From an uncultured Dysosmobacter sp. (GTDB lineage: Bacteria > Bacillota > Clostridia > Oscillospirales > Oscillospiraceae): 64,000 bases of DNA. Positions within the stretch are counted from its first letter, which is position 1; every line of letters begins with the position of its first letter. The position numbers and the translations under genes were made by a program. The notes beneath the pieces are model-generated. The model had not been told where the DNA came from. It searched no databases and saw nothing but the letters and a program-made list of their open reading frames with translations. The stretch is taken from contig NZ_CANRKH010000010.1 of NCBI RefSeq assembly GCF_947631165.1, positions 28,475 through 92,474 on the forward strand, written 5' to 3'. This document shows, one piece after another, positions 18,408 to 28,296 of this stretch.

Positions 18408-20345
18408 TCAGATCTCCTGCTCCCGCTTTTTGTTGGAGCACAGGACCCAGGCCAGAGCCAGGCCGGAAGCGGCCAGGGTCAAGGCCCACAGGGCGCTCAT
18501 ATCGCCGGTCTGGGGGATCTCGGACAGAGGCACTTCCTCCTCCGGCAGCTCCTCCAGGGGGATCTCCTCCTCGGGCGCTTCTTCCAGAGGCGTTTCCTCC
18601 TCCGGCAGGTCGGTCAGGGGCACGTCGGGATCGGGCAGTTCAGGATCGGGGTCTGGATCGGGATCTGGATCGGGATCAGGATCGCTGCCACCGCCGCCCC
18701 CGCCGGAGGGCGTGTTCTCTTTCCACTGGGCGATCAGCGTCACATCACTGGTCATTTTCAGCGGGCTATTTCCGTCAACGGGTTTTCCCTCGCTGTCGAC
18801 CCAGCCGGTAAACGTAAATCCGTCCCGTGCAAATTCGGCATCTTCCGCGCCGCCGAGCACGGTATGTTCGCCGTCGGCAACATATTTGCCGCCGTCGTAC
18901 TGGTTCCCATTGCCGTCAACGTAGGTGACGGTGTACACCGCGCCGGAGGTCACCGCCGTGCCGTCAGTCAGTTTCGTCGCGAGTCTGCTGTTCTCGTTGA
19001 AACGCGGGGTGATTGTATTAACAACGCCAGAACCCCATGCACCGCCGTCAATGTAGCCCGCCTGATAGCGATAACCGTCCTCCTTGTCTTCGCTCGGCAC
19101 ATCCATGCCTTGAACATTGGAGATGGTGACCGACGAGGCGACGCCGACAACAAGCAGATCATTACCGGCCTTGCCGGCCGTGTTTCCATAGAGGCTGCCG
19201 CCGGTGACCGCAACTGTGGCTTCATTGACTCCAATACCGCCGCCGCCAGTCACAGCAGTATTTTTGGTGATTGTTGTATCTGTGATCGTAGTCGTGCCCT
19301 CTACGGCATAAATGCCGCCGCCCGTATGCGTAACGAGGCTGCTGTTTGCTTCGTTTCCAGTGATCTCACTGTTCTCGATCGTCATGTTGCCGCCATTGGT
19401 AATGCCGCCGCCGCAGCTTTCCGCCACATTGCCGGAAATGGTAGAGTCTGTGATCGTCACTGTGCTGTCCGCACCGTTATTACTAGTGGAATCGTTATAC
19501 ACACCGCCGCCGAAATGCGCCGCTGTGTTGTTTGTGATCTCTGTACCATCGGTGATCGTCACAGAGGAGCCGCCATAGTAGCTGTTGCCAGTCACATGGA
19601 TGCCGCCTCCGTCGCCTTCGTTGCCTCTTTGGGCCGTATTCTCGGAGATCACGCTGTCCTTGACCTCCAGCGTTCCATTGTATACCGAAATGCCGCCGCC
19701 ATTTTTCGCTGCATTGTCAGTGATCGTAACATTCTCCACGGTGACATCGCTTCTGTCCACCATGATACCGCCACCGCCGCCATTTTGCGCTGTGTTGCCA
19801 GTGATCGTAACATTCTGCACAGTGGCTTCGCCCTCGCTCACATAGATGCCGCCACCGCCGGTGTTGGTGCCGCCATTTGTCGCAGTGTTTCCAGTGATCG
19901 TAACATTCTCCACGGTGACATCGCTCTTTATCACTTTGATGCCGCCGCCAGAGTATGCGTTGCCGCCGGTGATCGTGCCGTTTACAGCCGTTTCATTGCC
20001 ATCAGCATCTATCGCTTTCGCGCTGCTGGTGATGGTCACTTCGGCGCCGTCCTTCACTGTGATGACGCTCTCCTTTTTATCCTCATCGCCGCTCAGGGTA
20101 TGACCGTTCAAGTCCAGCTCAATGTCCTTCTCTTTAATGGTAACATTGGCCGTCTCATCGCTGGTCAGGGTGACGGACTTCTCCGCGTAGTCGATCGCAT
20201 CCTGAAGCTTTTCGTCCGCGAACTCCTTCTCACGCTCCGTGTCCTTATCCGCGATCGACGCCGCCAGCGCGGCGCCCGAGATGTTTACCGCCACTGCCGC
20301 CGACAGCGCCAGCGACAGCAGCTTCCGCAGTGTTTTGTTTGCCAT
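18408..20345 (-). CDS. Sortase-anchored beta-helix surface protein
   Basis: A 645-residue secreted protein. Residues 1-29 are a signal peptide (KLLSLALSAAVAVNISGAALA). The middle (about 60-400) has many imperfect repeats of the TVENVTITGNTA / GGGI type, as in right-handed parallel beta-helix adhesins and pectate-lyase-like folds. A short FTGWVDSEGKP block near 500-535 resembles Listeria-Bacteroides (InlB-type) repeats. A DPDP repeat and a Pro/Glu-rich spacer follow, then IPQTG at about 610-614, a hydrophobic stretch and NKKREQE. That is the layout of a cell-wall sorting signal with an LPxTG variant. AAGGAG precedes the ATG. Expression is probably controlled by the c-di-GMP-I riboswitch in its leader. 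Confidence 0.9.
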   Translation of the reverse strand: MANKTLRKLLSLALSAAVAVNISGAALAASIADKDTEREKEFADEKLQDAIDYAEKSVTLTSDETANVTIKEKDIELDLNGHTLSGDEDKKESVITVKDGAEVTITSSAKAIDADGNETAVNGTITGGNAYSGGGIKVIKSDVTVENVTITGNTATNGGTNTGGGGIYVSEGEATVQNVTITGNTAQNGGGGGIMVDRSDVTVENVTITDNAAKNGGGISVYNGTLEVKDSVISENTAQRGNEGDGGGIHVTGNSYYGGSSVTITDGTEITNNTAAHFGGGVYNDSTSNNGADSTVTITDSTISGNVAESCGGGITNGGNMTIENSEITGNEANSSLVTHTGGGIYAVEGTTTITDTTITKNTAVTGGGGIGVNEATVAVTGGSLYGNTAGKAGNDLLVVGVASSVTISNVQGMDVPSEDKEDGYRYQAGYIDGGAWGSGVVNTITPRFNENSRLATKLTDGTAVTSGAVYTVTYVDGNGNQYDGGKYVADGEHTVLGGAEDAEFARDGFTFTGWVDSEGKPVDGNSPLKMTSDVTLIAQWKENTPSGGGGGGSDPDPDPDPDPDPDPELPDPDVPLTDLPEEETPLEEAPEEEIPLEELPEEEVPLSEIPQTGDMSALWALTLAASGLALAWVLCSNKKREQEI

Positions 20346-20382
20346 CTTACATTCTCCTTTTAAAAAATTTTAAAAATCGAAT

Positions 20383-20470
20383 GAAATCGGCAGCCGGGCT
20401 GGCCTGGCGGTCTCCCGCTTTAGCCCCCTTAGCTTTGCGTGCCGGGGATTTCCCCCGGTTTGCCATTTCG
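20383..20470 (-). ncRNA. c-di-GMP-I (GEMM-I) riboswitch
   Basis: On the minus strand the leader of the surface-protein gene reads GGCAAACC, a GAAA-capped CCGGGG/CCCCGG stem, then ACGCAAAGC, then GGGGGCTAAAG, and ends with GCCAGCCCGGCTGCCGA. These are the conserved blocks of the GEMM-I aptamer, in the right order and spacing. The closing stem is GAAAT..GGCA with TGCC.GATTTC. The base matching position 20 of the Vc2 aptamer is G, which in known examples favours c-di-GMP over cGAMP. It ends 37 bases before the start codon. No clear terminator lies between, so control may act on ribosome access or mRNA stability. Confidence 0.88.
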
Positions 20471-20717
20471 TTTCCTTCATATGCGGCTCCCCGCACGTGG
20501 TCAGATCTTTTCTGCCATGTTACACATGGCAGAAGAAAAGGGTGCCCTTTTCTTGCGCGCTTGTTTGGCCGCCCGCAGTGCGCCGTCCCTGCTCCGCGGT
20601 CTGAAACATGATAACAGCCTCTTCTCACTCCTTTCTCTCCAAACTTCCAATCAAGCTGCGGCCCCATATCTTATGGCCGCGAAGTTCTCTTCTTCTGATT
20701 GCAGGGTTATTATAGCA
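20471..20717 (-). promoter_or_regulatory. Promoter and long leader of the surface-protein gene
   Basis: An extended -10 TGCTATAAT lies at 20709-20717 on the minus strand. Between it and the riboswitch is about 240 bases of leader with two hairpins: AGAAAAGGG/CCCTTTTCT near 20540-20558 and TTCTGCCATGT/ACATGGCAGAA near 20508-20535. A 29-codon ORF starts after AAAGGAG but I cannot support it as a gene. Confidence 0.55.
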
Positions 20718-20839
20718 CATGTCGGTTACAAATACGGTTACATTTTCCTATTTTTTCTTCATAGTTCAATAAAAAATACACACAAAATATGCCAACACAT
20801 TTTTACATATTTTATAAGAATTTCACAACCAGAAAATGA

Positions 20840-21016: not shown

Positions 21017-22675
21017 TCAACTCCTCGCCAGGGGAAAGGTCACGGTAAAGGCGCTGCCCTTGCCCGGCTCACTTTCCAGGGCCACTCTGGCTCCCAGATA
21101 AGCCGCGCCGTGCTTCACAATGGAAAGGCCCAGGCCCGTCCCCCCGCCGGAGTGGCTTTTGTCGGCCCGGTAGAACCGTTCGAATACCCGCTCCCGCTCC
21201 TCTGGCGGGATGCCCACACCGGTGTCCCGAACGGAGAGGACGGCCCCCTCCGGCCCATTCTCCACAGTGACGGCCACCGCACCGCCCTGCCGGTTATAGG
21301 CTACGGCGTTGTCGCAGAGGTTGTACACGATCTCCTCCACGATCTGCGGCACGCCCCAGACCGGCGCGGGACCGCCCTCCAGGGTCATGGTCACCTGACG
21401 CCGCTCCGCCGCCGGGGCCAACTGCTCCAGCACGCGGGCGGCCTGGCTGTATAGGTCCACCGCCTCCCAGCTCCCGGCGAATCCGCCCTCGTCCAGGCGT
21501 GAGAGCTGGATGATATCGTCCACCATGTCAATGAGCCGCTGGGCCTCCCGGCGGATGTTCCCGGCGAAATGGGGAATGTCTGCCTCCCGCACCATGCCGT
21601 TTTCCAGGATCTCCGCCGTACCCAGGATGGTGGTCAGGGGCGTTTTCAGCTCGTGGGACACGTTGGCGGTGAATTCCCGCCGCAGCGCCTCCCGCCGCTC
21701 TCTCTCCGTCACGTCCAGAATGACCAGCACCGCGCCGGAGGGTGCGCCGTCCCGCTCCGCGGGGCTGGCGAACACCTGGCGGCAAACGCCGTCCCGGTCC
21801 AGCAGCGTCTCCCAGGCCCGGCCCGCCAGGGCCTCCTCCACGCAGCGGCGGAAGCCCGCCTCCCGGTCCAGCGCCAGCACGCTCTCCCCCAGCGGCGTCT
21901 CCTCTGCCCCCAGCAGCTCCAGGGCGGCCTTGTTGCAGGACAGCAGCCGGGTATCCCGGTCGATGACCAGCAGGCCCTCCTGCATGTGCTCCGTAATGGT
22001 GTTGAACTCCTCCCGCTGCCGCACCAGGTCCGCCATCTGCCGCCGGATGCGGCGATTCTGGTCCCGGAGCTTCCCCACCAGAGGGGCCAGCTCCTCATAG
22101 GCCGTCTCCCCGCCGGGGTCCTCGGGGTCGATGGCGTTGATAGGGGCCACCAGCCGCTGGGCGACCCGCCCCGCCAGCCACAGCGCCAGGCAGAGAGCCA
22201 GCGCCACCATCAGGAATACCGGCCGCAGTGCCTGCAACACCATCATCCACACGGAGTCCTGATCCTCCGCCAGCCGCAGCACCGTGCCGTCGGACAGCCG
22301 CAGGGCGTAATACGCCGTCTTTTGGCCCAGGGTATCGGACCGGCGGACAGCCGTTCTGCGGCCCAGCAGCAGTGCGTCCCGGACCTCCGTCCGGTCAGCG
22401 TGGTCCCCCATGCCGGCGGAGTCCTCCCAGTTGTCAAACAGCACCGCGCCATTGCTGTCGATCCAGGTGATCCGCTTGATCTCCGGCAGGCCGCCGGTGA
22501 GATAGGCTCCGCCGTGGATCTCTATGCCTCGGGCGATATATGCGGCGCTCTGGGCCAGTTCCTCTGTCACCCGTTCCTCGAAGAAGTCGTGAAGAACCCA
22601 CACGATCAGCACCAGGCTGGCGGCCTCCACTGCCAGCGCCACCGCCAGGATGGCTCGGAAGATATGCCGTTTCAT
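21017..22675 (-). CDS. phoR: Phosphate-sensing histidine kinase PhoR
   Basis: Membrane sensor kinase that phosphorylates PhoB under phosphate limitation. The 552-residue form starts at ATG 22675 (MKRHIFRAIL) after GGAGG; its start overlaps the phoB stop by 4 bp. Residues 1-35 and about 155-185 are membrane segments flanking an extracytoplasmic loop, followed by HAMP, a PAS domain (TEHMQEGLLVIDRDTRLLSCN), HisKA with ANVSHELKTPLT and HATPase with NAVAYN, DTGVGI and GTGLGLSIV. It is the last gene of pstSCAB-phoU-HD-phoB-phoR. PhoU and Pst probably signal through it. Confidence 0.95.
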   Translation of the reverse strand: MKRHIFRAILAVALAVEAASLVLIVWVLHDFFEERVTEELAQSAAYIARGIEIHGGAYLTGGLPEIKRITWIDSNGAVLFDNWEDSAGMGDHADRTEVRDALLLGRRTAVRRSDTLGQKTAYYALRLSDGTVLRLAEDQDSVWMMVLQALRPVFLMVALALCLALWLAGRVAQRLVAPINAIDPEDPGGETAYEELAPLVGKLRDQNRRIRRQMADLVRQREEFNTITEHMQEGLLVIDRDTRLLSCNKAALELLGAEETPLGESVLALDREAGFRRCVEEALAGRAWETLLDRDGVCRQVFASPAERDGAPSGAVLVILDVTERERREALRREFTANVSHELKTPLTTILGTAEILENGMVREADIPHFAGNIRREAQRLIDMVDDIIQLSRLDEGGFAGSWEAVDLYSQAARVLEQLAPAAERRQVTMTLEGGPAPVWGVPQIVEEIVYNLCDNAVAYNRQGGAVAVTVENGPEGAVLSVRDTGVGIPPEERERVFERFYRADKSHSGGGTGLGLSIVKHGAAYLGARVALESEPGKGSAFTVTFPLARS

Positions 22676-23346
22676 CTCTGGTCCTCCGGACTGATCTTGT
22701 AGCCGTAGCCCCGGACGGTCTCGATGCAGGCTCCCGCATCTCCCAGCTTCTGCCGCAGGGTGCGGATATGTACGTCCACGGTGCGGCTCTCGCCGGTGAA
22801 GGCATAGCCCCACACATCCTGGAGCAGCCGCTCCCGGGTCAGGACCTTTCCCTGGCTCTTCAGCAGCAGGCAGAGCATCTCGAACTCCTTTTGCGTCAGT
22901 GCCACAGGCCGGCCGTCCGCCTCCACGGTGTGGCGGCCTGGGTCCACTGTCAGGCGGCCGCAGCGGTATGCCGCCGTCTCCGGGGCCGTCCGCCGCAGCA
23001 GCGCCCGGATGCGGGAGAGCAGCTCCAGCATCCCGAAGGGCTTGGCCACATAGTCGTCGGCCCCGGCGTCCAGGCCCAGCACCTTGTCATACTCGGTGCC
23101 CCTGGCCGTCAGCATGATGACCGGCAGAGCGGCGGTAACGGGATCGGCCCGCAGCTTTTTCAGCACGGACAGGCCGTCCTCCTCCGGCAGCATGATGTCC
23201 AGCAGCGCCAGCGCGGGGAGCCGGTCCGTCATGGCGGTCCAGAATTCCGAGGGGCGCTCAAAGCCCCGGGCCTCCAGGCCCTGGGCGTTCAGTGTGTAGA
23301 TCACCAGATCCCGAATACTGGGATCGTCCTCCAGTAAATAGATCAT
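22672..23346 (-). CDS. phoB: Phosphate response regulator PhoB
   Basis: An OmpR/PhoB-type response regulator of 224 residues. The receiver has the acidic pair LLEDDPS, the phosphorylation site in LLDIMLPEEDG and the conserved lysine in YVAKPF. The C-terminal winged helix reads ALTQKEFEMLCLLLKS and ends in TVDVHIRTLRQKLGD and RGYGYK. It activates the phosphate regulon by binding direct repeats such as those found before pstS. It overlaps phoR by 4 bp and follows the HD-protein gene by 22 bp. Confidence 0.96.
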   Translation of the reverse strand: MIYLLEDDPSIRDLVIYTLNAQGLEARGFERPSEFWTAMTDRLPALALLDIMLPEEDGLSVLKKLRADPVTAALPVIMLTARGTEYDKVLGLDAGADDYVAKPFGMLELLSRIRALLRRTAPETAAYRCGRLTVDPGRHTVEADGRPVALTQKEFEMLCLLLKSQGKVLTRERLLQDVWGYAFTGESRTVDVHIRTLRQKLGDAGACIETVRGYGYKISPEDQR

Positions 23347-23368
23347 CCTTGCCTCCTGTTCAGGCGCA

Positions 23369-24028
23369 TCAGATCAGCTGCTGTTCGTTGATCATCAGCT
23401 TGAATTGCAGCCCCAGCTTTTCCGCCGCCTTGCGGCAGAGGATCATCCGCTGCATGAATATCTCAAAGTAGTCCATCACGGAGCCGTACTTGGTATCGAC
23501 CGACAGCTTCAGCTTGATGAGGGTGTGCTCCTCGTTGATCTTCAGCACGGACTTTTTCACCGAATAATTGACCCGGTCGTGGATATCGAAGGTGGTGGGG
23601 TCCTGGTTCCGGACCCGGCTGCGGCGTACGTCGGACTTGTCCGCCAGGATCAGCGCCGCCGCCACGGCGTTCACCGGCAGGCCGGTGCCCTCATCGTGGT
23701 TGCCGATGGCGGTGACGATGGTGGCGATCTCCTCCGGGCAGCAATCCATGTGGTCCAGGATGCGGAAGGCCATCACTGCCCCGGATTGGGAGTGGTCGAT
23801 GCGGTTCACCAGATTGCCGATATCGTGGAGATAACCGGCGATCTTGGCCAGCTCCACCGTTCGGGCCGGATAGCCCAGGGTCTCCAGGATATAGCCCGCC
23901 TTCTCCGCCACCGCCGTCACATGGGCGAAGCTGTGCTCCGTGAAGCCCAGGGCGATCAGAGATTCGTCCGCCCGCTGGATATAGACCCGGACGGCCGGGT
24001 CGTTTTTCACCTGTTCATAGGTCAGCAT
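23369..24028 (-). CDS. HD-domain phosphohydrolase in the pho operon
   Basis: A 219-residue protein from ATG 24028, where AGGAGG lies 8 bases upstream; the track ORF begins in the preceding hairpin. Metal-binding residues of the HD superfamily can be seen: H36 in SFAHVTAV, H68-D69 in GYLHDIGN, a further His-Asp in AIGNHDEG and Asp in LADKSDV. The motifs suggest hydrolysis of a nucleotide or other phosphate ester. I cannot name the substrate. It is placed between phoU and phoB and so is likely co-induced by phosphate starvation. HD proteins are not part of the classical Pho operon, so this gene deserves notice. Confidence 0.88.
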   Translation of the reverse strand: MLTYEQVKNDPAVRVYIQRADESLIALGFTEHSFAHVTAVAEKAGYILETLGYPARTVELAKIAGYLHDIGNLVNRIDHSQSGAVMAFRILDHMDCCPEEIATIVTAIGNHDEGTGLPVNAVAAALILADKSDVRRSRVRNQDPTTFDIHDRVNYSVKKSVLKINEEHTLIKLKLSVDTKYGSVMDYFEIFMQRMILCRKAAEKLGLQFKLMINEQQLI

Positions 24029-24057
24029 AAGCTCGTCCTCCTGTTCAGAACTGTTTT

Positions 24058-24094
24058 GGGGCGGCGCGGGCCGGGGCAAGGCCCGCGCCGCCCC
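24058..24094 (-). other. Strong hairpin between phoU and the HD gene
   Basis: GGGGCGGCGCGGGCC and GGCCCGCGCCGCCCC form a perfect 15-bp stem with a 7-base loop. On the minus strand it is followed by AAAACAG, with no T-run. It may stop 3' decay or partly reduce transcription, giving more Pst and PhoU than PhoB and PhoR. Confidence 0.7.
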
Positions 24095-24110
24095 GGCAGA
24101 TGTCCGCCCC

Positions 24111-24758
24111 TCAATTATTGGAGGGGTGAACGCCTGTCAGGGCATACTCCACCCACTCCGCCACATTGGTGGCGTGGTCGCCGATGCGCTCCAGATACTT
24201 GGCCACCATCAGCAGGTCCAGGCCCTGGCCGCCGTAAGCGGCATCGGCGGCGATCAGGGCGATCAGTTCCGCCTTCACCTGATCGAACAGGGCATCCACC
24301 TCGTCGTCGGCGGCGCAGACCTGGCGAGCCAGGTCCAGGTCCCGCTTCACGAAGGAGTCCACGCTGTCCGTTACCATGGAGATCACCGCCCGGGCCATGT
24401 CCGGGATGTGGGAGACGCAGCTGTCCGGCGGCAGGCGCACATGGGCCGTCAGCTCCGCGATGTCCGCCGCCTGGTCGCCGATGCGCTCCAGGTCCGAAAT
24501 CATTTTCAGCGCCGCCGAGATGTTCCGCAGGTCCCGGGCCACCGGCTGCTGCCGCAGCAGCAGCTTCAGGCAGAGGTTCTCCACTTCCCGCTCCGCCTGA
24601 TCCAGCTCCCGCTCCTTCTCCATAGCGGTCTCCGCCAGGGCGCGCTGGTCCTTCAGCAGGGCCTCCGCCGCGGCGGAGATGGCCTCCTCGCACAGCGCGC
24701 CCATGCGGATCAGCTCCACGTGCAGCCGTTCCAGCTGCTGGTCAAACCGGTCCCTCAT
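24111..24758 (-). CDS. phoU: Phosphate uptake regulator PhoU
   Basis: A cytoplasmic, all-helical, 215-residue protein made of two PhoU three-helix repeats. Each carries the metal-contacting motif: ISDLERIGDQAADIAE in the first half and LERIGDHATNVAEW in the second. PhoU lowers Pst transport and keeps PhoR in its inhibiting state when phosphate is plentiful. It begins one base after pstB, so the genes are tightly coupled. Confidence 0.97.
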   Translation of the reverse strand: MRDRFDQQLERLHVELIRMGALCEEAISAAAEALLKDQRALAETAMEKERELDQAEREVENLCLKLLLRQQPVARDLRNISAALKMISDLERIGDQAADIAELTAHVRLPPDSCVSHIPDMARAVISMVTDSVDSFVKRDLDLARQVCAADDEVDALFDQVKAELIALIAADAAYGGQGLDLLMVAKYLERIGDHATNVAEWVEYALTGVHPSNN

Positions 24759-24759
24759 A

Positions 24760-25515
24760 TCAGCCGAACCTCCCTGTGATATAGTCCTCTGTGCGCTTGT
24801 CCTTCGGATCGGAGAACATCTGCTCCGTCCTGCCGAACTCCACCAGCTCCCCCAGCAGGAAGAAGGCGGTGTTGTCGGAGACCCGGGCAGCCTGCTGCAT
24901 GTTATGGGTTACCATGACTACAGTATACTGGTTTTTCAGCTCCGCCGCAAGGTCTTCGATCCTAGAAGTTGAAATAGGGTCTAAAGCGCTGGTGGATTCG
25001 TCCATCAGCAGCACCTCCGGCTCCACCGCCAAGGCCCGGGCAATGCACAGCCGCTGCTGCTGCCCGCCGGAGAGGCCTAGGGCGCTCTTTTTCAGCCGGT
25101 CCTTTACCTCGTCCCAGATGGCGGCGGAGCGGAGGGCGCTCTCCACAATCTCGTCCAGCTTCACTTTGGAGCGGACGCCGTGAGTCCGGGGACCGTAAGC
25201 CACGTTGTCATAGATGCTCATGGGGAAGGGGTTGGCCTTCTGGAACACCATGCCCACCCGCTTGCGCAGCCAGGTGGCGTCCACATTGGGACCATAGATG
25301 TCCTGGCCCCGGTAATTCACCGTGCCGGTGATGCGGACAGAGGGGATCAAGTCGTTCATGCGGTTCAGCGTCCGCAGGAAGGTGGACTTGCCGCAGCCGG
25401 AGGGGCCGATAAAGGCCGTGATCTCGTGCTCCGGAATGTCAATGCTCACGCTGCGGAGGGCCTGGTTCTGCCCATAGTACAGGTCCAGGTTTTCCACTTG
25501 AATAATCGTCGGCAT
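24760..25515 (-). CDS. pstB: Phosphate ABC transporter ATPase
   Basis: The ATP-hydrolysing subunit of the high-affinity Pst importer. The 251-residue form starts at ATG 25515 ([10 protein letters not shown]) after AGGAG; the GTG at 25533 in the track overlaps the pstA stop and has no site. Motifs: Walker [10 protein letters not shown], signature LSGGQQQR, Walker B EVLLMDES, switch histidine in MVTHN. The block [11 protein letters not shown] is characteristic of PstB. It follows pstA by 14 bp. Confidence 0.98.
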
Positions 25516-25529
25516 GGAAGATTCTCCTA

Positions 25530-26378
25530 TCACTTTTTCAATTTCCTGCCCGCGAAGTTGGAGGCCAGGTTGATGAGGAACGTCATCACCATCAGAATCG
25601 CCGCAATGGCAAAAGCCACGCCCGTCTCACCCCGCTCGTTGGCATAGACGTACAGCGCCACGGTCAGCGTAGCGGAGGAGGACTCCATGGCTCCGCTAAA
25701 GCTATTGAGGATCAGGCCGAAGCCAGCAGTAAACAGCAGGGCCGCGCTCTCACCCACGATACGGCCGACGGCCAGGATGCAGCCGGTGACGATTCCGTCC
25801 ACGGCGTTGGGCAGCACCACGGTGCGGACCATGTGCCACTTTCCCGCTCCCAGGCTCAGGGCGCCCTCCCGATAGGACTGGGGCACGGTCTTCAGGCTCT
25901 CCTGGGTCGTGCGGACGATGGTGGGCAGGACCATGATGACCAGGGTCAGGCCGCCGGCCTTGATACCGGCCTGCCAGCCCACCAGCTGCAGAAAGAACAG
26001 CATGCCTACCAGGCCGAAGATGATGGAGGGAATGCCCGTCAGCGTCTCGGTGGCAAATTCGATGACCGCCACCAGCCGGTGGTTCGCAGCATACTCCGTC
26101 AGGTAGACGGCGGCGCCCACGCCCAGGGGCAGGACGATGGCCATGGCCACGACGATGATATAGAGGGTGTTGAGGATATTGGGCAGGATGCCGATGGTAT
26201 CCTTGATATAGCTGGTCTGGCTGGTCAGCAGCTCCCAGGTGATGTTGCCGAGTCCGCGGTAAAAGATATAGCCGATCAGGAACATCAATAGGGCGCAGGT
26301 CAGTCCGGCACAGAGCCACAGCAGACCCCGCAGGCCCCTGTCGTAGACCCGGCGGCGCAGGGACAGCTTCTGTTCCAT
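25530..26378 (-). CDS. pstA: Phosphate ABC transporter permease PstA
   Basis: An integral membrane subunit of the Pst importer, 282 residues with six predicted membrane helices. The first is [21 protein letters not shown]. The cytoplasmic coupling loop reads [23 protein letters not shown], the EAA-type motif contacting PstB, and SIIFGLVGM is a typical PstA block. The ATG follows GGAGG and lies 3 bp after the pstC stop. Confidence 0.97.
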
Positions 26379-26381
26379 AGG

Positions 26382-27371
26382 TCAGTCCTCCTTCCTGTTC
26401 TTGATGAACACGTTCAGCAGCACGTTGATGAGCATGATGAACAAAAACAGCACCAGGCCGATGGAGTACAGGGCGTTCCGCTGAAGGCTCCCGTAGGATG
26501 CGTAAGACATCTCCGAGGCAATGGCCGTGGTCAGGAAGCGGACGGAGGTAAACAGGCCCGGCATGTTGGCCACGTTGCCGGAGACCATGATGATGGCCAT
26601 GGCCTCGCCGATGGCGCGGCCCACGCCCAGCACCACTGCCGTTGCCACGCCGCTGCTGGCGGCGGGCAGGGACACCCGAAAGTAGGTCTCGATCCTGGTG
26701 GCGCCCAGGGCCAGGGACGCCTCCTCATACTCCCGAGGCACGGCCCGAAGGGCCGTTTCAGACACATTGATGATGGATGGCAGGATCATGATGGCAAGCA
26801 CCAGAATGGCAGCCAGCAGGCAGGCGCCGGAGCTGAGGCCAAACAGGCTGCGGATGGCGGGCACCAGCACGATCATGCCCACCAGGCCGTACACCACGGA
26901 GGGAATGCCCGCCAGCAGCTCCACGGCGGTCCTGATGACCCGGGCGGCCTTGGGCGGCGCCACCTTTGCCAGAAAGACGGCGGTCATCAATCCCACAGGC
27001 ACACCGATGATCACGGCACCCGCGGTGCCGTAGACGGAGGTCAGGATAAAGGGCAGGATACCGTAGGACGCCTCCACAGTGGTGGCGGTGGGAGCCCAGA
27101 CCTGTCCAAAGAGGAAGTCCGCCAGGCCGATCTCCCGGATGGCCGGCAGGCCGGAGACGATCAGGTAGATGCTGATGAACAGGACAAAGGCCACAGCCAC
27201 GACGCCGCACAGCAAAAACAGCAGGTGGAAGAACAGTTCCATGACCTCCCTGCCGTTCCACGTCTTCTTTGGCGCGGAGCCGCGGTCTTTGCGGCGGTTT
27301 TTTTCTCTTTCAGCTGACGGCCGCCCCGGCATGGGGCCGGACCAGGTATTTTCCATTTCCATGATTTCCAT
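26382..27371 (-). CDS. pstC: Phosphate ABC transporter permease PstC
   Basis: An integral membrane subunit, 329 residues. The first 45 are a basic cytoplasmic tail (REKNRRKDRGSAPKK) before six membrane helices. The EAA-type loop reads EYEEASLALGATRIETYFRVSLP and SVVYGLVGM is shared with PstA. Start choice is uncertain: AAGGAG is very close to the ATG at 27371 and 11 bases from the ATG at 27362; either gives almost the same protein. It lies 85 bp after pstS. Confidence 0.96.
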   Translation of the reverse strand: MEIMEMENTWSGPMPGRPSAEREKNRRKDRGSAPKKTWNGREVMELFFHLLFLLCGVVAVAFVLFISIYLIVSGLPAIREIGLADFLFGQVWAPTATTVEASYGILPFILTSVYGTAGAVIIGVPVGLMTAVFLAKVAPPKAARVIRTAVELLAGIPSVVYGLVGMIVLVPAIRSLFGLSSGACLLAAILVLAIMILPSIINVSETALRAVPREYEEASLALGATRIETYFRVSLPAASSGVATAVVLGVGRAIGEAMAIIMVSGNVANMPGLFTSVRFLTTAIASEMSYASYGSLQRNALYSIGLVLFLFIMLINVLLNVFIKNRKED

Positions 27372-27456
27372 GTCTCCTTCTGTCTGCGGGAATAGCCTCC
27401 CCCCAGCTCCTTGTCATTCGTGGGTGGAGGCCGTCCCCAAGGGGGTGTGTTCGTGA

Positions 27457-28296
27457 TCATTTCGCGACGGGCACCGCGCCGGCGGCACGGATCAGATCGT
27501 TTGCGGCGGCGGAGGTGGCGAAGCTGAGGAATGCCTGGGCCTGAGCGCTCAGGTCCGCACCCTCCTTGGTGACCAGAATGAAGGGACGCTGGATCTCATA
27601 GCTGCCATCCAGCACGGTGTCCTCGGTGCAGGTCACGCCGCCAACAGTAACAGCCTTGACCGTATCCTTCAGGGCGGACAGAGAGGCGTAGCCGACAGCG
27701 TTGGGATTGCCGGCAACAGCCTCAATGACAGCGCCGGTGGAGGTCAGCTCCTGGTCCAGTTTGCATGCGTCCTTGGTGCCGGTAATGGACTCAAAGCCGT
27801 CCCGGGTACCGGAGCCAGCCTCACGGCCGATGCAGGAGATGGTGCCGGCATCGCCGCCCGCCTCGCTCCAGTCGGTGATCTCACCGGTGAATATCTTAGC
27901 GATCTGCTCCACAGTCAGGTCCTCCGCCTTGCAGGCGGGGTTGACGATGACGGCGATGCCGTCCAGAGCCACGGTGGTACCCACCAGGCCGGAGTCTGCT
28001 TCCTCGTCCTTCAGGGCGCGGGAGCTCAAGCCGATGTCGGCGCTGCCGTTGGAGGCAGCCTCGATACCGGCGCCGGAGCCGGTAGCGTCATAGGTGACGG
28101 TCACGCCGCTGTTGTCAGCCATAAACTGCTCGCTCAGGGCGCCGATGACTTTCTCCATAGAGGTGGAGCCGTTGGTGGAAACAGCGCCGCTCAGCTGTGT
28201 CTCGGCGGACTGCTCCCCGGTTTCGGAAGAACCGCAGCCGGCCATCAGAGACAGGGCCAGGATCAGGATCAGCAAAATAGCACATGCTTTTTTCAT
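27457..28296 (-). CDS. pstS: Phosphate-binding lipoprotein PstS
   Basis: The extracytoplasmic phosphate receptor of the Pst importer. The 279-residue protein has a lipoprotein signal peptide ending LMAGC, so Cys 21 is probably lipidated. The phosphate-binding loops are visible as NGSTSMEKVIG, IGLSSRALKDEE and REAGSGTRDGFE. It is the first gene of the operon, after AAAGGAG and a leader of about 160 bases. A Pho box lies in its promoter. Confidence 0.97.
   Translation of the reverse strand: MKKACAILLILILALSLMAGCGSSETGEQSAETQLSGAVSTNGSTSMEKVIGALSEQFMADNSGVTVTYDATGSGAGIEAASNGSADIGLSSRALKDEEADSGLVGTTVALDGIAVIVNPACKAEDLTVEQIAKIFTGEITDWSEAGGDAGTISCIGREAGSGTRDGFESITGTKDACKLDQELTSTGAVIEAVAGNPNAVGYASLSALKDTVKAVTVGGVTCTEDTVLDGSYEIQRPFILVTKEGADLSAQAQAFLSFATSAAANDLIRAAGAVPVAK

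Follow-up and report, generated by a model that had tools for sequence, protein, structure and literature searches.

Here, we identify a c-di-GMP-I riboswitch ahead of a gene for a sortase-anchored adhesin and consider it likely to turn on translation of that gene. We suggest that, when ligand is absent, the post-aptamer strand UGCC-G-AUUUCAUUC would pair onto the Shine-Dalgarno (SD)/start region GAAUGUAAGAUGGCA and that this OFF helix would conceal the AUG together with some of the SD. When c-di-GMP is present, the aptamer would hold the post-aptamer strand, with the UGCC cytosine touching the ligand, and AUUUC would enter P1 by pairing with GGAAACG; the start region would be freed and the adhesin translated. 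What would allow the start region to be masked in this way is its imitation of the aptamer's 5' strand (GAAAUGGCAAAC vs GAUGGCAAAC). Because the masking helix and the ligand-bound aptamer need the same tail bases, masking and ligand binding would exclude each other and, therefore, c-di-GMP should switch translation on. We infer the direction of this control in vivo and the size of its effect.

A class I aptamer in the leader of an adhesin gene

The adhesin gene and its leader lie on the minus strand of the window, i.e., the whole 64-kb stretch of DNA that was analyzed, and comprise the following features.

20724 to 20742, minus strand: tandem direct repeat TGTAACC-GTAT-TTGTAACC, putative activator box of the promoter (genome and genus pattern matches)
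20709 to 20714, minus strand: -10 element TATAAT with TG one base upstream (TGCTATAAT), presumed promoter (sequence; layout repeated after the box elsewhere)
20533 to 20554, minus strand: hairpin H1, AAGAAAAGGG-CA-CCCTTTTCTT (fold, shuffles)
20510 to 20534, minus strand: hairpin H2, TTCTGCCATGTGTAACATGGCAGAA, abutting H1 (fold, shuffles)
20481 to 20496, minus strand: hairpin H3, GUGCGG-GGAG-CCGCAU, just upstream of the aptamer (sequence and fold)
20469 to 20475, minus strand: P1 5' strand GGAAACG, predicted partner of the tail in the ligand-bound form (constrained fold; cognate pairing beats swapped)
20386 to 20474, minus strand: c-di-GMP-I aptamer (RF01051)
20378 to 20392, minus strand: switching strand, UGCC (20392-20389) plus GAUUUCAUUCG, predicted to pair with the P1 5' strand or the SD/start region
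20354 to 20359, minus strand: SD, AAGGAG (sequence)
20340 to 20353, minus strand: start region AAUGUAAGAUGGCA, mimic of the aptamer 5' strand (GAAAUGGCA), masked in the predicted OFF helix (MFE fold); AUG at 20345-20343
18408 to 20345, minus strand: adhesin CDS, with signal peptide, beta-helix-like repeats, Flg_new/List_Bact_rpt, an Asp-Pro and Glu/Pro-rich stalk, and an IPQTG anchor

By its sequence, the aptamer is certain to be a c-di-GMP-I (RF01051) member. The Rfam scan proposed in the preliminary description placed RF01051 at 20474 to 20386 on the minus strand with 70.1 bits, well over the cut-off of 35, and E = 1.1e-11; this was the sole match at the gathering threshold on either strand of the window. 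The alignment covers model positions 1 to 87 of 87 with zero non-canonical pairs, and the conserved blocks that had been named are present, the core retaining the G at model position 11, the GAAA loop, ACGCAAAGC, and the GCC at the 3' end. Thus, the scan confirms, at full length, the proposal of a c-di-GMP-I riboswitch in the leader of a surface-protein gene; the span first given, 20383 to 20470, marks the right site but is 3 to 4 nt off and came without the strand. We take the G at model position 11 to be Vc2 G20 and the cytosine in UGCC (20392-20389) to be the equivalent of the ligand-contacting Vc2 C92, and the ligand-contact roles of the core residues are assigned by analogy with Vc2. For the window aptamer, we infer both the identity of the ligand and its affinity.

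The gap from the aptamer to the ATG is 40 nt. The gene encodes a protein of 645 aa with a hydrophobic N-terminus and all features of a sortase anchor, i.e., a signal peptide, an LPXTG-like motif, a transmembrane segment, and a basic tail; as read from the translation, the C-terminus consists of IPQTGD, the transmembrane segment, and KKREQE. NCBIfam LPXTG_double scores 43.4 bits on the protein, just below its cut-off of 48, and the genome has three sortases (PF04203 matches). The sortase-type adhesin noted earlier behind the riboswitch is, thus, upheld. The protein also contains a List_Bact_rpt domain, repeats of the TITGNTA..GGGI kind, and an acidic/proline-rich stalk. The beta-helix proposed for it agrees with seven weak Chlam_PMP repeats and with a single-sequence AlphaFold model in which strands repeat at residues ~140 to 390 and for which the best PDB fold matches are nearly all parallel beta-helices; however, TM-scores are low and the pLDDT is 53.5 (low confidence), and we, therefore, regard a parallel beta-helix as probable rather than proven. 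A sequence search found no solved homologue of the adhesin.

A 106-aa ORF at 20347-20667 (minus strand) spans the entire leader and aptamer and ends just before the ATG. It was rejected as a gene and is probably spurious: it has no Pfam match, and similar read-through frames occur at other aptamers (L002, L003). Just upstream of the adhesin gene, at 21017-28296 (minus strand), the window contains a PhoR/PhoB-like two-component pair and, after it, genes resembling phoU and pstBACS.

Two predicted helices compete for the aptamer tail

We assign the window to Oscillibacter (GTDB sense, Oscillospiraceae). RF01051 is carried by 39 of 86 genomes of this genus and by 79 of 251 genomes of a family sample. 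The leader set comprises 149 non-identical leaders sorted into three kinds; 47 are window-like (type A), and nearly all of these visibly precede signal-peptide proteins. L003, L074, and L133, in which aptamer ends or starts do not fit the scheme, were left out of the tests described below.

In the MFE fold of the window leader, the post-aptamer strand UGCC-G-AUUUCAUU is paired with the start region GAAUGUAAGAUGGCA (z = -3.3), and prediction recovers the same masking helix for most type A leaders. By best-duplex prediction, the masking helix and P1 use common tail bases in 43 of 44 leaders, with a median of 15 pairs per leader in the masking helix vs 9.5 in P1; the AUG is paired in 44/44 leaders, and 34/44 have two or more paired SD bases. 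When P1 and the aptamer were enforced in constrained folds of the window leader, the openness of the AUG rose from 0.32 to 0.71-0.74 and that of codon 2 from 0.22 to 0.57, and the SD was barely altered (0.51 to 0.45-0.47), so that opening is limited to the AUG/codon-2 region. Reaching the ON fold carries a penalty of 8-9 kcal/mol when neither tertiary contacts nor ligand are modeled; such a penalty would be compatible with a very tight ligand but does not constitute proof. In the window leader, the masking helix is bulged, and the P1 helix is short and contains an A-A mismatch.

The leader, thus, contains a helix that covers the SD and/or AUG and is exclusive with P1, which is the arrangement of a sequester/anti-sequester pair. 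The preliminary description had seen no obvious terminator between aptamer and gene and had considered the mode of control not apparent. A terminator scan of the leader likewise found no intrinsic terminator between the aptamer and the ATG; by contrast, the covarying SD/AUG helix exclusive with P1 now makes translational ON control the best-supported mode.

The masking helix covaries, and tails fit their own starts better than others

Covariation in the masking helix was observed across 44 leaders from several Oscillospiraceae genera. First, the base after the tail UUUC changes in step with the base before the start-region GAA: UUUCG/CGAA occurs in 12 leaders, UUUCA/UGAA in 9, UUCCG/CGGA in 4, and UUUCU/AGAA in 1, while the remaining rows of this count are mostly regular-expression parsing failures or G-U pairs, with a few true misfits. 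The pairs were counted by anchoring; a MAFFT alignment had shifted the tail blocks. Second, tails pair with their own starts at -17.1 kcal/mol on average vs -14.6 kcal/mol with swapped partners, and 0/5000 permutations were as good (n = 38). This advantage was still at 0/5000 with 22 tails (70% identity thinning) and 12 tails (60%) but weakened to 44/5000 with 5 tails, a set small enough to cost power, in permutations that take no account of phylogeny. The P1 side covaries more weakly (0-1/5000 at 85% thinning and about 40/5000 at 70% and 60%). Third, the window tail pairs with its own start at -16.7 kcal/mol, and none of 197 other starts with an SD, taken from 400 kb of this genome, was as good (mean -7.8, sd 2.6). 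L023, L144, L152, and L134 fit the scheme poorly.

It could be argued that there is no switch and that an intact aptamer merely adjoins a start whose complementarity to the tail is a by-product, arising because the signal peptide begins Met-Ala-Lys and the aptamer ends in the conserved GCUGCC. The products indeed begin with signal peptides, mostly MAK/MAN, and the codon-2 GCA, which is partly a signal-peptide habit, supplies part of the pairing. Ten background ATGGCA starts paired with the window tail at a mean of -10.3 and at best -16.2 kcal/mol, and the window start was still better. The inner helix without UGCC/GGCA also covaries (0/5000), including the SD-flanking bases, which encode nothing. 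We consider a by-product highly improbable.

Relation to described c-di-GMP switches

A translational switch of the opposite sign, in which bound ligand would trap the SD/start region, has precedents among class I RNAs. The ligand-bound form is described as masking the RBS in Vc2 of V. cholerae (a title cited in PMC11218506) and traps the RBS and AUG in Bc1 of B. thuringiensis (PMC11218506); moreover, class I switches are OFF switches in C. difficile (PMC6200980). The window leader shares with Vc2 and Bc1 the class I aptamer, a dynamic P1, and, as predicted here, control at the level of the RBS (PMC9262584, PMC11218506). However, these RNAs are described as masking the RBS with ligand, while the window leader is predicted to unmask, and the UGCC and UUUC that the ligand-bound aptamer needs are consumed in the masking helix. 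An OFF switch is, in our assessment, unlikely.

The preliminary description had pointed to C. difficile as the parallel for riboswitch control of sortase-type adhesins. This holds insofar as c-di-GMP controls sortase-anchored adhesins there, and ON control of sortase-dependent surface proteins is what we predict here; however, the ON switches before CD28310 and CD32460 belong to class II (PMC6200980), while the window aptamer belongs to class I. Bc2 upstream of cap in Bacillus thuringiensis is a closer precedent than C. difficile. Bc2 belongs to class I and acts as an ON switch for a collagen adhesin of the LPXTG kind (PMC4933901), and the window leader resembles it in having a c-di-GMP-I aptamer, a predicted ON response, and an LPXTG-type surface adhesin. 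They differ in that Bc2 acts via antitermination, whereas the window leader has no terminator downstream of the aptamer and is predicted to mask its own start region. Vc1 upstream of gbpA in V. cholerae is likewise a class I ON switch before an adhesin/colonization factor and without a terminator; no anti-SD was identified for it, and its mechanism was not settled (PMC4744006), while the window leader has a predicted anti-SD/anti-start helix. Finally, tandem c-di-GMP-I riboswitches have been described (PMC9481103) and occur in the genus of the window as well; by contrast, the window leader has a single aptamer.

A promoter box and hairpins upstream of the aptamer

The pattern TGTAACC-N4-TTGTAACC has three matches with at most one mismatch in its own genome, one upstream of each type A leader, and the reversed pattern has none. 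In the 86 genus genomes, the box has 31 matches vs 14 for the reversed pattern, and 20 of the 31 have a same-strand aptamer 51-250 or 525-571 nt downstream. In the window, transcription would start at about 20702; a sigma-70 scan, which requires a -35, did not report the TATAAT promoter. The longer spacing class has room for a gene of ~141 aa and contains one where read (L014). This unknown protein (..WQGSVQWLEGRQEESFRSVLELLLLMNS..), encoded between promoter box and riboswitch at L014:1038-1463, has no match in Pfam, NCBIfam, or PHROGs, and a similar frame can be seen to end ahead of many other genus leaders.

The abutting hairpins H1 and H2 occur in 14 of 46 type A leaders vs 0.1 expected from shuffles and in 0/83 of the remaining kind. 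In 13 of these leaders, 33-55 nt separate the pair from the aptamer downstream, and in the remaining one the distance is 25 nt; the H1/H2 sequences vary among leaders with pairing retained. Elsewhere, 400 kb of the genome contains ten abutting hairpin pairs, several of them in apparently coding or repeat-like DNA. By eye, H3-like GC hairpins with purine-rich loops are present at many leaders. At a relaxed threshold, Rfam returned only sub-threshold chance matches on the upstream hairpins. Two candidate functions were rejected: CsrA could bind H3 at its GGA loops, but a search of the genome found no gene for CsrA; and the known LoaP-type antitermination hairpin is a UNCG hairpin (PMC12691694), which the H1/H2 loops do not match. 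Tentatively, and with considerable doubt, we suggest that H1+H2 followed by H3 could be an undescribed structured RNA element that, together with the TGTAACC box, forms a dedicated multi-layer adhesin control unit in Oscillospiraceae. If so, this element might, e.g., alter the elongation or stability of long adhesin mRNAs.

These hairpins also bear on whether control is transcriptional, with termination at the terminator-like H1, or by Rho when the mRNA is untranslated, and with an aptamer tail that merely tunes. At several leaders, H1 has a GC core and a U-rich 3' arm, and antitermination ON switches are known (Bc2, PMC4933901; pilM, PMC9262584). However, H1 lies upstream of the aptamer and, hence, is transcribed ahead of the sensor, the terminator scan did not call it, and the H1+H2 pair is absent from 32 of 46 type A leaders. 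Overall, there seems little chance that control is exerted at this level.

Two other intergenic stretches of the same genome, L170:7216-7380 and L178:10440-10615, contain four to five consecutive hairpins each. They have some sequence in common (TTCAT..., GCGCTT.GCGCA, TTGACT) and no Rfam match.

Other copies in the genome and related leaders

The genome has four RF01051 matches, three of which lie about 25-50 nt before surface-protein genes beginning MAN/MAKK. These three type A leaders precede the window gene, a Cna_B protein with IPKTG (L003), and a VWA/SLH protein (L002). The VWA/SLH protein is split into frames of 118 aa and 1349 aa (L161:6306-10710), which reflects an assembly error or a true frameshift. 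The G at model position 11 is found in 44 of 47 type A leaders; in two of the three adhesin aptamers of the genome (L002:1501-1592 and L003:1501-1598), it is replaced by A. An A at the Vc2 G20 position is linked to cAMP-GMP binding. Consistent with a supply of ligand, the genome also encodes c-di-GMP enzymes: one is a response regulator-HD-GYP-GGDEF protein whose GGDEF motif is intact, and another has the composition GGDEF-GGDEF-EAL.

The fourth copy, L004, has the type B architecture. By pattern, type B comprises 20 leaders (L004:1450-1601 and 19 related loci), mostly with tandem aptamers, in which the tail CUUUGCRUCCGA...GCAAAGAAAGGA (by pattern, CUUUGCRUCC...GCAAAGAAAGGA) lies beside the SD; L100 among them is probably of the terminator type. 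That CUUUGCGUCC of type B exactly complements GGACGCAAAG of the aptamer core suggests a different switch design. Many leaders outside types A and B have terminators.

Implications for adhesin control in gut Oscillibacter

A literature search that covered few subscription journals found no published class I ON switch that unmasks a start codon and no c-di-GMP paper on Oscillibacter, and a search for start-codon/aptamer mimicry found nothing. We, therefore, file the window leader as RF01051 with a putative new expression-platform variant. In the literature searched, the solved class I ON switches act by antitermination, and the adhesin switch without a terminator, Vc1-gbpA, lacked a mechanism. 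The covariation described here offers a specific platform for translational ON control, one whose coding start would mimic the aptamer's own 5' strand. In common gut Oscillibacter, adhesins as diverse as those with VWA, Cna_B, MucBP, SLH, and Big_2 would then belong to a single c-di-GMP regulon that has a promoter box of its own.
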